Assembly (NCBI GenBank): GCA_017431845.1
Contig: JAFRKG010000066.1
Coordinates: forward strand, 1 to 64,000
DNA from: Methanosphaera sp.
GTDB taxonomy: Archaea; Methanobacteriota; Methanobacteria; Methanobacteriales; Methanobacteriaceae
Length of the DNA stretch: 64,000 bases
Reading direction: 5' to 3'
Shown: piece after piece, positions 7,193-21,318 of the stretch
Layout of the letters: every line of letters starts with the position of its first letter
Numbering within the stretch: the stretch's first letter is position 1
The notes under the pieces: generated by a model
The model's input: only the letters and a program-made list of their open reading frames with translations
Database searches by the model: none
Told to the model about the DNA's origin: nothing
Position numbers and translations under genes: made by a program

Positions 7193-7319
7193 GATATCCC
7201 ATTACTTGTTTTTAATGTATTAGTGTATCTTTTTTTAAATATTAATATAGATAGGTTTAAATAGAATTGTAGACTATGAAAAAGTATATGAATTAATTTG
7301 TTATTATGAGGAGTTTTTT

Positions 7320-8099
7320 ATGAGAGATATTTTGATGAAATTGATTAATGGTGAGATTAGTATTGAAAGTGCTGAAAATGAGCTTAAGATTATGCAGATT
7401 CATGAGATTGGTGATAATATTAAGTTTGATTCTACTCGTGAGAATAGGGTTGGTGTTCCTGAGGCTGTTTATTCTCAGGGAAAAAGTGATGAAGACTTGC
7501 TGAAAATAATCAACAATATCAATTTTATAGACAATTTAATGATAACAAGACTCCCTGAAGACAGGTTTAATTCCATTAAGAATAAAATAAATGAAGATGT
7601 TCTGGAAAAATCAACTTATTATAATAACGCATCTATATTAACCATTAACAAAAAAGAGCCGAAAAAATGTAAAGGAAAAGTAGGCATAATAACAGCAGGA
7701 ACAGCAGACATACCCATAGCAGAAGAATCAAGAATAACCCTACAACAAGCAGGATACAAAGTAGTAACAACATACGACGTTGGAGTAGCAGGAATACACA
7801 GACTAATAGATAAAATAGCATACATACTAGAAGAAAAAGTCGATATCATAATAACCCTTGCAGGAATGGAAGGAGCCTTACCATCAGTAGTAGCAGGAAT
7901 AGTAGACATGCCAGTAATAGCCGTACCAACATCCACAGGATACGGAGTTGGAGAAAAAGGATTCACAGCACTATTTGCAATGCTACAATCATGCGCCCCC
8001 GGTATTGCAACAATGAACATTGACAACGGATACGGAGCAGCAGTATATGCAATAACAATACTAAAACAAATAGAAAAAAGAGTAAACGAAGGATACTAA
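7320..8099 (+). CDS. larB: LarB-type nickel-pincer cofactor carboxylase
   Basis: LarB carboxylates and hydrolyses nicotinic acid adenine dinucleotide to pyridinium-3,5-biscarboxylate mononucleotide, first step to the nickel-pincer nucleotide. The PurE-like core starts at about residue 118 with ITAGTADIPIAEES; AGMEGALPSVVAG, PVIAVPTSTGYG and APGIATMNIDNGYGA follow. GAGGAG at 7308-7313 precedes the ATG. The first 60 codons use T/G-rich synonyms and the rest A/C-rich ones, with an abrupt change near 7490. No larC or larE lies in the window. A TnpB element is inserted directly after the stop codon. Confidence 0.9.
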   Translation: MRDILMKLINGEISIESAENELKIMQIHEIGDNIKFDSTRENRVGVPEAVYSQGKSDEDLLKIINNINFIDNLMITRLPEDRFNSIKNKINEDVLEKSTYYNNASILTINKKEPKKCKGKVGIITAGTADIPIAEESRITLQQAGYKVVTTYDVGVAGIHRLIDKIAYILEEKVDIIITLAGMEGALPSVVAGIVDMPVIAVPTSTGYGVGEKGFTALFAMLQSCAPGIATMNIDNGYGAAVYAITILKQIEKRVNEGY

Positions 8100-8100
8100 T

Positions 8101-8143
8101 GAGTACTTGACAAAATTATTTTTGATAGAAAAAAAGTAATACT
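8101..8143 (+). repeat. Left terminal inverted repeat of TnpB element
   Basis: GAGTACTTGACAAAA (8101-8115) opens the repeat and AGTAATACT closes it at 8135-8143; both blocks recur inverted at 9821-9863. The 14-nt string AAAAAAGTAATACT (8130-8143) also occurs at 19868-19881, just before the decayed DDE transposase. Confidence 0.75.
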
Positions 8144-8231
8144 CTCAAGGAATAATTCTCTTTTTTATCTTATGAAAATAACATGATTGTCTTTGTTCAA
8201 ATCAAACTAACAAATATTTTACAAAAATAAT

Positions 8232-8248
8232 TTATGATTTAATCATAA
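8232..8248. repeat. Perfect hairpin downstream of tnpB
   Basis: TTATGATT and AATCATAA flank a single T, giving eight paired bases followed by a T-run on the + strand. It lies just past the 3' end of tnpB, where the scaffold of a TnpB guide RNA or an IS605-type end hairpin would be expected. It could alternatively act as a terminator for transcription coming from larB. Confidence 0.4.
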
Positions 8249-8267
8249 TTTTTTTTGGTAATATGTT

Positions 8268-9575
8268 TTAAAGAGGTTTGATTTTACTTGGAGCGTACTG
8301 GACCCACTTATACAGTCGTTCAAAATTGAATTTCTGCTTACTTTTACGTATAATATTGGCAGCAGCATTTACATCTGCATTTAACAATTTTCCACCAAAT
8401 GTTTTATATAATCCTCTTTTAATTCGTTTACCTTTAAACTCATATTCCTTTTCCTGTCCATTATTTGAGTCGTATACAGGTAGTATGTCATTATCGAGGA
8501 AGCTGCTTTTGCTAGTGTAGGATTCTTCTTGAATTATTAGTGTTAAGTCATGTATCTTACATTTATTTTCTAATTTTTCTTTGAATTTTTTGAATGCAAT
8601 ATGAGTAAATATTTGATTTTGCTTTTTTCCTATATTACTCTTGTATTGGAAGTTTTTGTTGTATCCAAGTATTATGGTGCCAATATCTTGATCTTTACAG
8701 GCATTTATTATTGTTTTTGTAACGTGGTTTAGGTAGTTGTTTTGTATTTGTTTGAATTTGGTATTTATCTTTTTTATTCTTCGGGATTTTTTTAAGCCCG
8801 TTTTGTTTAGTATTGATTGGTAATGTGCTACTTTTTTGCATTTAAATGCTATCTGATTTTTTAGAAATTTCCCGTCCACTATAAATGGAGTCTCTTCAGT
8901 TGTAACAACTGTTGCAAAATTATTAACACCCAAATCAATACCCATAACATTATCTTTATCTAAACCGAGTGGTTCTTTTTCTGCCTGATAGGTGAAATTT
9001 GCCTTAAACATTCTACCATTGTCTATTGGTATAATTTCTACTTGAATAATCTTTTTATCTCGTATATCTTCTGGAATTTTAATTCGTGGCCTAACATTAA
9101 CATCCACCAATTCTTTTTTATATTGCCTGCTAAGGGGTAATTCAATATAACCCTCCCTTAATTTCTTTTTGGAAGAGGTTATAGACTCTTTTGGTATAAT
9201 TATATTGTGTAAACGATTATAATGCTTTTTAGGACTATGAACGTCCCGATTAAATTCATTGTCAATTTTCTTATTTAATAATGTAACATACCCATTAAAA
9301 GAATCCACATGCTTTTTAATAGCGGCATTTGCCAAATGAGTTTGAACTAAAGAATACTCATTAAATTCAGATTTAACATCGGAAATGATTGATTTATAAT
9401 TTATTTTCTTATAATGTTTATCATCACTTTTCTTGATTAAATATGTTGTTTCTACAGCACAATTTCTTAAATTGTTAAGTTTCAATGAAATATCCACTAA
9501 AACATCATATTGCTTCTTAGAAAGCCCACGAACAAGAATACTCTTAGTCAAATACACAACATCATCACATAACAT
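8268..9575 (-). CDS. tnpB: TnpB-family RuvC-like RNA-guided nuclease, no zinc ribbon
   Basis: TnpB proteins are RNA-guided DNA nucleases of IS200/IS605-type elements, ancestors of Cas12. The three RuvC blocks are intact: Asp in GIDLGVNNFATV (about residue 215), Glu in IIQEESYTSK (about 350), and Asp in NADVNAAANII near the C-terminus. The CxxC-CxxC zinc ribbon usually found between the last two blocks is absent, replaced by a cysteine-free SSFLDNDILPVYDS segment, as in a recognised TnpB-like subgroup. The protein is 435 residues, undamaged and probably expressed. No tnpA (Y1 transposase) is nearby. A guide RNA would be expected from the 3' end of the gene towards 8230. Confidence 0.88.
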   Translation of the reverse strand: MLCDDVVYLTKSILVRGLSKKQYDVLVDISLKLNNLRNCAVETTYLIKKSDDKHYKKINYKSIISDVKSEFNEYSLVQTHLANAAIKKHVDSFNGYVTLLNKKIDNEFNRDVHSPKKHYNRLHNIIIPKESITSSKKKLREGYIELPLSRQYKKELVDVNVRPRIKIPEDIRDKKIIQVEIIPIDNGRMFKANFTYQAEKEPLGLDKDNVMGIDLGVNNFATVVTTEETPFIVDGKFLKNQIAFKCKKVAHYQSILNKTGLKKSRRIKKINTKFKQIQNNYLNHVTKTIINACKDQDIGTIILGYNKNFQYKSNIGKKQNQIFTHIAFKKFKEKLENKCKIHDLTLIIQEESYTSKSSFLDNDILPVYDSNNGQEKEYEFKGKRIKRGLYKTFGGKLLNADVNAAANIIRKSKQKFNFERLYKWVQYAPSKIKPL

Positions 9576-9820
9576 AATAATATCTACTAAAAAAACTCAC
9601 TCCTATACCATATAATATAAAACCATGATATTAAACAATAACTTTAAATATAAAATGTACATAAAATTTAATAAGTTAATGAATAATCATATGATTCATA
9701 TAATAATATTCTATACAAACTAATATATAAATGTAACATTAGCATAATAATAGATCAAAATTATATGTTGAGAACTACTACAAAAAATTATTAAATAATT
9801 ATTAAAATAAACAAAAAAAA

Positions 9821-9863
9821 AGTATTACAAAAAGACAAAAAAAGATATTTTTGTCAAGTACTC
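9821..9863 (-). repeat. Right terminal inverted repeat of TnpB element
   Basis: AGTATTAC at the inner side and TTTTGTCAAGTACTC at the outer side match the inverted left end exactly, with equal spacing between the two blocks. CTAAT follows at 9864. Confidence 0.75.
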
Positions 9864-9891
9864 CTAATATAAAAAAAAGAGTTGATAAAAA

Positions 9892-10140
9892 ATGATAATA
9901 GAAATCATATTCATGATAGGGCTAATAGTTGTTGCAGGAATAATCTTAAACCTCATACTCGACATAGGAAGTACCCTGCTAAAAATTGTAGCACACATCA
10001 TATCAGGATGGATACTACTAACACTAGTGAACTTAGTACCTGGAATATACATTCCAATAAATACACTTACAGTACTAATATCAGGATTTGGAGGAGTAGT
10101 AGGTACAGTACTACTAGCATTCCTATACCTAATATTCTAA
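9892..10140 (+). CDS. BofA-family small membrane protein
   Basis: The 82 residues are almost entirely hydrophobic, with two predicted spans and a C-terminal segment (WILLTLVNLVPGIYIPINTLTV) like the BofA family, named after the Bacillus pro-sigma-K processing inhibitor; the archaeal role is unknown. The ATG at 9892 follows a GAGTTGAT ribosome-binding site. Without the TnpB element the start would lie about 30 bp after the larB stop, so it was probably the second gene of a larB operon. Its last 4 bp overlap the convergent nnr gene. Confidence 0.65.
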   Translation: MIIEIIFMIGLIVVAGIILNLILDIGSTLLKIVAHIISGWILLTLVNLVPGIYIPINTLTVLISGFGGVVGTVLLAFLYLIF

Positions 10141-11609
10141 TCTTTTAATTTTTTTAAAATATCCCCCACACCATAACCAAAACCTTTTTCAGCCAATACA
10201 CTATCCGCAGCACGACCCAAAATGAATGATGCAATATAAGCTGCATCAAATGGTGAAACTTGTGTTGCTAAAGCAACAGTTAATCCTGCGAGAAGATCAC
10301 CTGTTCCTCCAATAGTCATACCCTGATTTCCAGTTTTATTTAATTTATAATCATCCACTGATGATATTATATCAACAACATCCTTCAACAATATTGTAAC
10401 ATTATATTCCACGGATAACTGTGTTAATAACCTAATTTTATCATCTAATTTTTTAGGAATATCCCTGCCAAACAAGCCCGTAAACTCGTGTTTATGGGGA
10501 GTTAACACCATATTATCTTTTAACAAGTCCCTGTCAATTAATTTTAAAGCATCCGCATCAATAACCAATGGTTTATCAATACTGGATAATATTTTATTGA
10601 ATAATATTCCTGTTTCCTTTTCAATCCCACTACCTGATCCAATAAGTACTGCATCAACCCGTTCAGATAATTCCATTACCGTGTCAAATGCGTCCATAGT
10701 CAATATTTTACCTTCAACACCTCGAACAATAAACTCTGGATTATACTGTTTAATTATGTTAGCAGAAGATTCGGGTGCAACAATATACACCAAATCCACA
10801 AGTTGTGTCAGACAACTATTAGCAGCAAAGACCACTGCCCCAATATAATCAGGATTTGAACCAACTATCAACACGGACCCGTTTTGTCCTTTATGAGAAT
10901 CAGTACCGGGAGTTTTAAGTTTTAGAAGGTCGCCTTCTCCAACATATTCCTCTGAAACTCTTGGTATTCCTATATCTAACACTTCTATTTCACCAGTATA
11001 AGACTTTTGAGCCTTAAGTAATCCTGTTTTCATCTTATGTAATGTTAGTGTAGTGTGAGCTACCACTGTCTTATCCACTACCTGTCCATTATCAGGGTTT
11101 AATCCTGAAGGAACATCTACAGACAGTACGATTGCCGGCGAGTAGTTTATTGTATCCACTGCACTTGAAATTGGTTGTCTGAGTTTTCCATTAACTCCGG
11201 TTCCCAGTATTGCATCCACTATAATATCAGAATTATCTGGTTGTATCTGTGTAGAATCTGTAATAATATTTAATTTAAGGTTTTTATCTGTTTGAGCTAT
11301 TATTTTTATTGATTCATAGTTTGTTCTGGAATCTGGATTTTTTATATTTTCTGGACGTGCCAATAGGAATAAATGTACTTTATATCCATGATTCAGGAGG
11401 TGTCTTGCTATAACAAAGCCGTCTCCACCATTTCCGCCAGTCCCTGAATATATTGATACCTTTTTTTTATTGGGGTATGTGTTTACAATATAATCTGCTA
11501 TCCTTGTTCCTGCATTTTCCATTAATACCAGTGTAGGTATATGATTATATTCAGTGTTTTTATCTGTTGCCCTCATTTCTAATGGTGTTAGTATGTCTTT
11601 CACTTTCAC
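10137..11609 (-). CDS. nnr: Bifunctional NAD(P)H-hydrate epimerase/dehydratase
   Basis: This repairs hydrated NAD(P)H: the N-terminal YjeF_N domain (about 1-215, YSGTGGNGGDGF) epimerises and the C-terminal ribokinase-like domain (about 230-490, with the GTGDLLAG nucleotide motif) dehydrates using ADP or ATP. The 490-residue fusion is the normal size. Translation starts at GTG (11609-11607), preceded by GAGGAGGGG; a second GTG two codons later is possible. The gene follows ftr with a 25-bp gap on the same strand. Strand composition changes near 11000. Confidence 0.92.
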   Translation of the reverse strand: MKVKDILTPLEMRATDKNTEYNHIPTLVLMENAGTRIADYIVNTYPNKKKVSIYSGTGGNGGDGFVIARHLLNHGYKVHLFLLARPENIKNPDSRTNYESIKIIAQTDKNLKLNIITDSTQIQPDNSDIIVDAILGTGVNGKLRQPISSAVDTINYSPAIVLSVDVPSGLNPDNGQVVDKTVVAHTTLTLHKMKTGLLKAQKSYTGEIEVLDIGIPRVSEEYVGEGDLLKLKTPGTDSHKGQNGSVLIVGSNPDYIGAVVFAANSCLTQLVDLVYIVAPESSANIIKQYNPEFIVRGVEGKILTMDAFDTVMELSERVDAVLIGSGSGIEKETGILFNKILSSIDKPLVIDADALKLIDRDLLKDNMVLTPHKHEFTGLFGRDIPKKLDDKIRLLTQLSVEYNVTILLKDVVDIISSVDDYKLNKTGNQGMTIGGTGDLLAGLTVALATQVSPFDAAYIASFILGRAADSVLAEKGFGYGVGDILKKLKD

Positions 11610-19807: not shown

Positions 19808-19848
19808 TGACTATACAAGTGGATGTAGTCAGAATGTGTGGTGATGAA
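19808..19848. repeat. Inverted copy of the transposase 3' end, upstream side
   Basis: This stretch, including AATGTGTGGTGA, matches the reverse complement of 21238-21279 (inside the transposase tail) at roughly 27 of 38 positions. It may be the left terminal repeat of the decayed element, with its partner lying inside the coding end, or a scrap of a second inverted copy. Confidence 0.45.
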
Positions 19849-19899
19849 TTTTCAGTTACTTTTTAGCAAAAAAGTAATACTTTTTTTAATTGTTTTTAA

Positions 19900-21318
19900 A
19901 TGTTAATTTTTACTAGTTTTATTGCCCATTGGGGCGTGTTTTTAAAAATAAGTGATAATGAAGTTTTTATTAGTAAAAATGAGAGATATTATATTATTAA
20001 AGTACAAAATAACTCTCCTATTACTAATTATGTTGGTCATCAACTTAAACTTGACGGTTTTTTTAGTGAACCATTAGTTGATGTTATTAGAAAAGATAAT
20101 ACTGATGATGAATGTGTAAATTTATTATCTTTTGATTGTAAAGATTTAATTGTAGATTATTTGGATAATTATTTTGATGATGATCTTCCAGTTACTTTTG
20201 CTGATGATTATGTGAAATCTAAGCTATCTCAGATTACTAATAATTTGAAAGTTTTTGAAACTAAAGATGGTGTTGTTTTTACTCAATTTAGGAGTTATTG
20301 TCCTCATTGTGGTTCTAAACATGTTGTTGAAGATAGTTATTATCCTAAAAAACTTGTTTTGAATGTTTTTGGTAATTTCAGTGTTTTCAGGCGTATTATG
20401 AAGATAATATAGAATTACTATGCTATTTGTGGTACTCCAGTTCGTAGAATATAGGAAATCATGAAAAGAATTCATAATGTATACTTATCTTACCAGGAAG
20501 TACAAGACATTATAGTCGATTATAGTATTAAATATGAGTCTAATATAGAAAATTATTCTGAATATTATGTATTTGATAGTTTATGGGTTAAAAAAGATGA
20601 AATTAGTGATAATTATGTTTATTTCTTTGCATTATTTGATGTACATCATAGAACATTGATGGATTATAAAATAGTTGAAGAAGAAAACAGTACTGAAGTT
20701 TATAATTTCTTACGTAATGCTACACTTAATCAACCACGTAAAGCAATTACAACTGACTTACATATTGCTTATAGAAAACCAATACAAGATTTAGCATTCA
20801 AACACCAATTCTGTTAATTCCATGCAAAACAAAACATCAATAAATACTTATACAATCATGTAAAAGAGAACAATATCAAAAAAAAGACCCATAAGGAATA
20901 TAAAAATATTTGGAAGAAGTTTATCAAATTTACGAAGCAGAAAATAGATTTGAAGTATTAGATATATTGGATAATATTTTTAGTAGGCGTGAAGAGTTTC
21001 CAGATGTTATTAATGAGATTGTTGATAAAAAGATTCGTCCTTATTCTCGTTATTTAACTATGTTTCTTGAAGATAGTTTTATTGAACGAACTAGTAATTG
21101 GATTGAGCGTATTTTTGGTGATCTTGCACCGAAATCTTTAAAAAATAAATTTAAAACATTACGTGGATTTTTATCTAGACTAAATTTGAAACTTGAAAGA
21201 TGGGATTCTCGAAACGCATTTTTATGATGAAAAAGGTAACTTCACCACACATCTTGACAACACCGATTTCTACAGAGCCAAAAAAATATTAAAATATAAA
21301 TTACAAAGTATAATTTAA
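19900..21318 (+). pseudogene. Decayed DDE transposase
   Basis: One transposase is split by in-frame stops at 20410, 20452 and 20815, a frameshift near 20905 and another near 21223. The pieces read in order as an N-terminal region ending in a CPHCGS zinc motif, a catalytic core with FDSLWVKKD and TTDLHIAYRKP (two acidic positions), and FIERTSNWIERIFGD (third acidic position), with a tail ending near 21318. The order resembles archaeal insertion-sequence transposases of the ISM1-like type (tentative). It cannot make a working enzyme. Confidence 0.8.

Follow-up and report, generated by a model that had tools for sequence, protein, structure and literature searches.

A tnpB gene between IS1182-family ends in Methanosphaera: a probable non-autonomous DDE transposon

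Which transposase moves a tnpB gene that lies between inverted ends and a target duplication? The question is raised by a unit at positions 8101-9863 of the window, by which we mean the whole stretch of 64,000 nucleotides that was analysed (positions 1-64000 of contig C172 in a draft genome, G000). The host, Methanosphaera, is a methane-making gut archaeon. The unit carries tnpB and has larB on one side and a small plus-strand gene on the other. An earlier note on this DNA claimed that it has inverted ends with an exact CTAAT duplication, and read tnpB as the cargo of a non-autonomous DDE-type element. The first claim is correct as it stands, and the second is supported by the duplications, by empty sites and by IS1182-like ends. 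We argue that the unit is probably a non-autonomous transposon in which tnpB lies between ends of the IS1182 family, that its mover is a transposase of the IS1182 type encoded at another place in the genome, and that it may have an RNA-guided part. The ends, the 5-bp duplications, the empty alleles, the ends shared with IS1182, the joint movement of composites and the purifying selection on TnpB are read directly from the sequence.

TnpBs, unlike Fanzors, are said to associate only with IS200/IS605 and IS607 elements (PMC10711439). TnpB-only relatives are described as having neither terminal inverted repeats (TIRs) nor target-site duplications (TSDs) (PMC3627910), and ISDra2 inserts without a target duplication (PMC8612924). 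The unit in the window has both. Its TIRs lie at 8101-8143 (plus strand) on the tnpB 3' side and at 9821-9863 (minus strand) on the 5' side. They are identical at 15/15 outer positions (GAGTACTTGACAAAA at the 3' side), at 8/8 positions of an inner block (positions 36-43, AGTAATACT) and at 31/43 positions overall. CTAAT stands at 8096-8100, adjoining the tnpB-3' end, and again at 9864-9868. The outer 15-mer has no other occurrence in the window, even allowing 2 mismatches, and in 100 Markov-1 randomisations of the flanks neither a 15/15 repeat pair with a 5-bp duplication nor a 13/15 pair appeared. The same 3' end bounds relatives at other loci. The inner match that the earlier note described is present, but since most relatives carry AGTATTACT and not AGTAATACT in the inner block of the 3' end, the exact in-register match is partly peculiar to the window copy.

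The empty site decides how these ends are to be read. The genome G041 is near-complete and is assigned to the species of the window's genome. In it, window positions 7300-8100 (100% identical) are joined directly to 9864-10600 (98%). The overlap at the junction is the five duplication bases in a single copy, which reads CTGAT rather than the CTAAT that the earlier note expected. When the joined flanks of G041 insertions are used as query, the window's genome shows cleanly empty sites, each with a single copy, for eight of them. At least nine insertions therefore differ between two genomes of one species, which implies that the tnpB family was recently active.

Further units are present in G041, G003 and other Methanosphaera genomes, and their ends divide them into three families. 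F1, to which the window unit belongs, has 5' GAGTATCTGACAAAATTATC... and 3' GAGTACTTGACAAAATTATTTTTGATAG...; F2 has 5' GAGTGTTGGCATAAATTCG... and 3' GAGACTTGGCATAAATTAG...; F3 has 5' GAGTGTTGGCATAAATTATG... and 3' GAGACTTGGCCAAAAG... Both ends are known for 24 units from the three families and several Methanosphaera genomes, short derivatives and two composites included. An exact 5-bp duplication flanks 18 of them, 2 match at 4/5, 2 have exact 6-bp duplications (TCTCAT, GAGTAT) and 2 have none; a match of at least 4/5 is expected by chance in 4.8%. One of the two without a duplication (L159) has a flank missing about 90 bp that are still present in the empty allele of the window's genome. The earlier note had named as evidence against itself tnpB copies that are never bounded by such repeats; the other copies do end at these inverted repeats. 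Its second refuting condition, that no tnpB-free empty site exists, is contradicted by the single-copy site in G041. On this sequence evidence we regard it as nearly certain that the unit moves by DDE transposition of the type that leaves TIRs and TSDs.

Some of the units are short. The derivatives L060/L062 (G001) and L165/L224 (G041) are about 0.5 kb long, have lost most of tnpB and keep the 3' RNA-like region. Within each pair the two copies lie at separate loci and share one internal deletion.

DDE elements with matching ends are present in the genus, and they belong to the IS1182 family. Two DDE remnants that adjoin tnpB units in G003 have the same kind of ends and are of this family. Intact IS1182-type transposases of about 495 residues are found in G003 (three copies), G012 and G041; they match NF033551 at E 1e-71 to 1e-73, just under the model's curated cut-off, and Pfam DDE domains are present. 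The intact elements have GAGTAT...GACAAAA ends and 5-bp duplications (TGTTT, ACAAT, TTATT, ACAGT, CACTT). A 5-bp duplication is found in 5/6 IS1182 copies of the c/d and e/f types, and L087, a further IS1182 copy in the window's genome, has the ends and lacks the duplication. The 5' ends of the tnpB units match IS1182 ends at 46/48 for F3 (end B of the G003 element), 41/47 for the window unit (IS_a) and 37/39 for F2 (end B). Their 3' ends are IS1182-like in the outer 20 bp or so only. IS1182 copies and tnpB units also have a target motif and a duplication length in common, with a T-tract and a 5-bp duplication at 5 IS1182 copies and 20/24 units.

At two loci in G003 an F3 tnpB unit is separated by 28 bp of old flank from an IS1182 element. 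The composite as a whole is flanked by a duplication, TGACA at one locus and ATGAA at the other, and its two components have none of their own. One end of the IS1182 element and one end of the tnpB unit must then have acted as a pair, which points to probable mobilisation of the unit by an IS1182 transposase. We consider an IS1182-type transposase to be very probably the mover. G003 also has a second IS1182-family element in five copies (L092, L097, L102, L105, L106), with 503-aa transposase frames, ends GGGTGTYCGCCAAAA and possible 4-bp duplications (AAAT, TGAG).

The seven bases before the duplication, read in the sense of tnpB, are TTTTTWW at nearly all tnpB 5' ends. T is found in 37/37 at positions -7 and -5, in 36/37 at -6 and in 32/37 at each of -4 and -3. 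A T-run, meaning five or more T in a row in the 17 nt beyond the duplication, is present at 36/37 tnpB-5' ends versus 4/46 tnpB-3' ends (Fisher 7.6e-18). In the window the motif is TTTTTAT at 9869-9875 (minus strand), directly outside the duplication and at the place of a transposon-associated motif (TAM). Five duplication-bearing IS1182 copies have the T-tract on the transposase 5' side in 3 cases and on the 3' side in 2, so the orientation toward the T-tract is 24:0 for the tnpB units versus 3:2 for IS1182 (Fisher p = 0.025).

The guide of a TnpB is the flank beyond its 3' end and the TAM stands directly before the matching target, the TAM of ISDra2 being TTGAT (PMC8612924). Removal of a Methanosphaera unit puts TTTTTWW directly before the duplication and the flank that a guide would match, so the observed orientation would make the empty site a TnpB target and the filled site not. 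This pattern suggests RNA-guided cutting of the empty site. From its position, the predicted guide of the window unit is ATTAGTATCCTTCGTTTACT in tnpB sense (8081-8100, minus strand), which comprises the duplication and the flank beyond the 3' end and matches the empty site. Insertion specific for terminators was considered as a cause of the orientation of the window copy and rejected: the T-tract lies upstream of a plus-strand gene, not at the end of a minus-strand gene.

The gene tnpB (8268-9575, minus strand, 435 aa) encodes a member of the RNA-guided endonuclease family that scores 117.7 bits against NF040570 (cut-off 100), with PF01385 and PF07282 also above cut-off. The RuvC catalytic residues, assigned by motif as D214, E350/E351 and D401, do not vary among 11 copies. 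The CxxC pairs of a C4 zinc ribbon are absent from the TNB segment; the whole-protein model is still above its cut-off, and on that ground we do not regard the ribbon as indispensable. The ratio of nonsynonymous to synonymous substitution rates (dN/dS), by the pairwise Nei-Gojobori method and not model-based, is mostly 0.15-0.35 within and between families, with extremes of 0.12 and 0.49. These values indicate that TnpB is under purifying selection across the three families. The tnpB copies found in G007 are pseudogenes with many stops. A single-sequence search of the PDB was unproductive, and the best match of a profile search, to an IS605 OrfB structure, reached only E 3.5e-5.

The 3' region is read here as a candidate omegaRNA. 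It would cover 8101-8375 (minus strand), from the end of the tnpB open reading frame (ORF) through the 3' non-coding part up to the TIR, and it is kept in derivatives without tnpB. A 19-nt non-coding motif, TTTGATTTGAACAAAGRCA, lies downstream of the tnpB stop and is kept in all three families and in most short derivatives; in the window it stands at 8188-8206 (minus strand, TTTGATTTGAACAAAGACA). Just inside the 3' end, at 8124-8166 (minus strand), an A-run, a variable stem and a T-run form a predicted hairpin that could be part of the omegaRNA or a terminator. A hairpin near the 3' end with changes on both sides of the stem is found in F1, F2 and the short derivatives and was not seen in F3. 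Its z-score is -1.8 in the window copy and falls to -5.1 in relatives. With F3 misaligned, RNAalifold found no structure common to the three families. At the other end a 5' leader (9576-9820, minus strand) separates tnpB from its inverted repeat.

We propose the following route. The transposase would insert beside TTTTTWW, and this motif would double as the TAM. Transcription of the unit's 3' end into the flank would give an omegaRNA with a guide that starts with the 5-bp duplication. The target of TnpB at the empty site is predicted to be TTTTTAT-ATTAGTATCC..., and we predict omegaRNA-guided, TAM-dependent cleavage by this TnpB, with TTTTTAT-ATTAGTATCCTTCG... as substrate and the occupied site spared. 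TnpB would cut insertion-free alleles, either after excision or when an empty copy comes in, and repair from the insertion-bearing copy would restore or spread the unit. Those short derivatives that have lost tnpB but not the 3' RNA region would depend on TnpB supplied in trans. Cutting of empty alleles would explain why the tnpB 5' end is constantly placed beside the T-tract.

Several points weigh against this RNA-guided part. About 30 nt inside the unit's 3' end the hairpin runs into a stretch of T and could stop transcription before a guide is reached. An Rfam scan of the candidate RNA gave zero matches, and the AlphaFold model of the protein is unusable (mean predicted local distance difference test, pLDDT, of 57). 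The contrast in orientation with IS1182 is based on just five IS1182 copies. The two ends of a tnpB unit are also unlike in sequence, so the polarity of the transposase alone could set the orientation.

This last point leads to the alternative that survives best. TnpB may be a passenger that cuts little or acts elsewhere, with the unit oriented solely by the end polarity of the IS1182-type transposase. A polar transpososome is possible since the 5' end is IS-like over about 48 bp and the 3' end over the outer 20 bp or so, and derivatives without the tnpB ORF (L060, L165, L224) share the orientation. However, a passenger does not account for purifying selection on TnpB across three families with its catalytic residues kept. 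The short derivatives keep the 3' RNA region beyond the ends alone, and IS1182 copies themselves insert in both orientations. We therefore think it rather unlikely that TnpB is only carried along, and we lean, without great confidence, towards the RNA-guided part of the explanation. A stronger claim would be that the TnpB system has become adapted to a DDE transposon, where the target motif is the TAM, the duplication is the start of the guide, empty alleles are cut and omegaRNA-only derivatives act in trans. This would be an independent archaeal counterpart of Fanzor capture by eukaryotic transposons, and we hold it to be evenly balanced between true and false.

A second alternative leaves the RNA aside and replaces the mover with an unrecognised DDE transposase of a family other than IS1182. 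G006 and G001 carry tnpB units and have no IS1182 match, though both are draft genomes, and the window itself contains a different kind of DDE element. It must also be noted that the IS1182 copies closest in ends to F3 have no duplication and have T-tracts on both sides, which counts against an IS1182 mover. These copies (L281 592-2374, L282 1867-3649, L283 1215-2992) differ in their flanks from the c/d and e/f types. IS1272, of the IS1182 family, is reported to replace palindromes upon insertion (PMC5678879), and the F3-type copies may insert by a similar replacement. Against another family stand the end identity to IS1182 of up to 46/48, a target motif and a 5-bp duplication shared with IS1182, and the two composites that pair an IS1182 end with a tnpB-unit end. 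We judge such a mover improbable.

Solo tnpB elements of the IS1341 type are common in archaea. The remaining alternative, that this is an ordinary solo tnpB of the IS200/IS605 or IS1341 type with coincidental repeats and duplication, has in its favour that the protein belongs to the TnpB family, and it is hardly credible in the face of single-copy empty sites, duplications at 22/24 units, IS1182 ends, composite movement and a Y1 transposase that in the genus amounts to one fragment. IS1341-type solo elements have been described in bacteria (PMC9956272).

The search for the recombinases of ordinary tnpB elements agrees with this. Among 20 Methanosphaera genomes the Y1 transposase (PF01797) was represented by one 31-position fragment only. 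A serine recombinase (PF00239) was found in 1/20, on another contig of the window's genome (G000:C163:25762-26178, L329; Resolvase domain, 470-aa frame), and was absent from G041 and G003, the genomes with the most tnpB copies. An ordinary IS200/IS605 or IS607 element was thus rejected on the TIRs, the duplications, the empty sites and the scarcity of Y1 and serine recombinases.

A TnpB profile search of 20 genera of the phylum was positive in Methanosphaera alone. The nearest outside relatives found by tblastn are TnpBs of Bacillota plasmids, at 36-38% identity. In four Bacillota loci that were inspected (32-37% identical) no comparable TIR flanked by a duplication was found other than a single chance match made up of A and T only; a search for relatives in viral contigs was unproductive. 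The limited distribution and the Bacillota loci without such TIRs imply that tnpB was probably captured by an IS1182-type element in or near Methanosphaera.

Like the tnpB elements of IS200/IS605 and IS607, such as ISDra2, the units have the RuvC D/E/D residues, a T-rich motif on the 5' side at the place of the TAM and a 3' flank as would-be guide. Those elements use Y1 or serine recombinases, whereas TIRs and 5-bp duplications mark the Methanosphaera units, and their probable mover is a DDE transposase of the IS1182 type. They share TIRs, a T-tract preference and 5-bp duplications with IS1182-family insertion sequences, whose DDE transposase relatives are in the same genomes, but encode TnpB instead of a transposase and have a fixed orientation to the T-tract. 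Miniature inverted-repeat transposable elements (MITEs) are also non-autonomous, bounded by TIRs and known as internal-deletion derivatives common to several loci; unlike them, the Methanosphaera derivatives keep a conserved 3' RNA-like region besides the ends.

A parallel exists in eukaryotes and their viruses, where DDE transposons carry Fanzors: a TnpB homologue is the sole cargo of a non-autonomous cut-and-paste element that has TIRs and makes short duplications (PMC3627910, PMC10711439). The elements reported to contain Fanzor1 are of the Mariner, Sola, IS4-like, Helitron and MuDr kinds (PMC3627910). The differences are the prokaryotic TnpB, the archaeal host and the IS1182-type ends. Fanzors are reported to derive from cyanobacterial IS607 TnpBs (PMC10711439), so the capture in Methanosphaera should be independent. 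Fanzor RNAs include the TIR and the duplication in the RNA scaffold (PMC10711439); if the same were true here the guide would begin after the duplication. A TnpB on a DDE chassis in a prokaryote appears to be new, though an earlier report is possible since most subscription journals were outside our literature search. The units, with their numerous recent insertions and their allelic empty sites, are an archaeal counterexample to the rule that ties TnpBs to IS200/IS605 and IS607 alone. It can now be tested whether RNA-guided cutting of empty sites aids the persistence of a DDE transposon and whether the target motif must be the TAM. The constant orientation relative to the motif would be a natural readout of such selection.

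At the locus itself, larB (7320-8099) has an AIRC domain, and its stop codon is overlapped by the duplication copy at 8096-8100. The other DDE element of the window, at 19811-21275, is decayed and has inverted ends of a different kind, 34 nt long and imperfect (76%, ATGTGTGGTGA core); its ORFs have only sub-threshold matches to IS256/IS1595/IS3 models. As in IS1182 elements, AGTAATACT lies some tens of bases in from the end. The earlier note had pointed to a recurrence of the inner string here, and AAAAAAGTAATACT does recur at 19868-19881. Its suggestion that the decayed transposase (19.8-21.3 kb) was a former source of mobility does not hold, and we reject it on the unrelated ATGTGTGGTGA-type ends and the weak IS256/IS1595/IS3 matches, which are not IS1182.

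In G015, where no tnpB was detected, a MITE of about 130 bp (L077 1472-1604, and L078) has related ends and a TTACA(T) duplication. Several contigs of that genome (L068, L072, L074, L079) stop about 75-255 bp inside a unit with the 5' end GAGTGTCCGACAAAATTATC and a T-tract flank. They represent a collapsed multi-copy repeat, which is probably another tnpB-type family that the assembly lacks.
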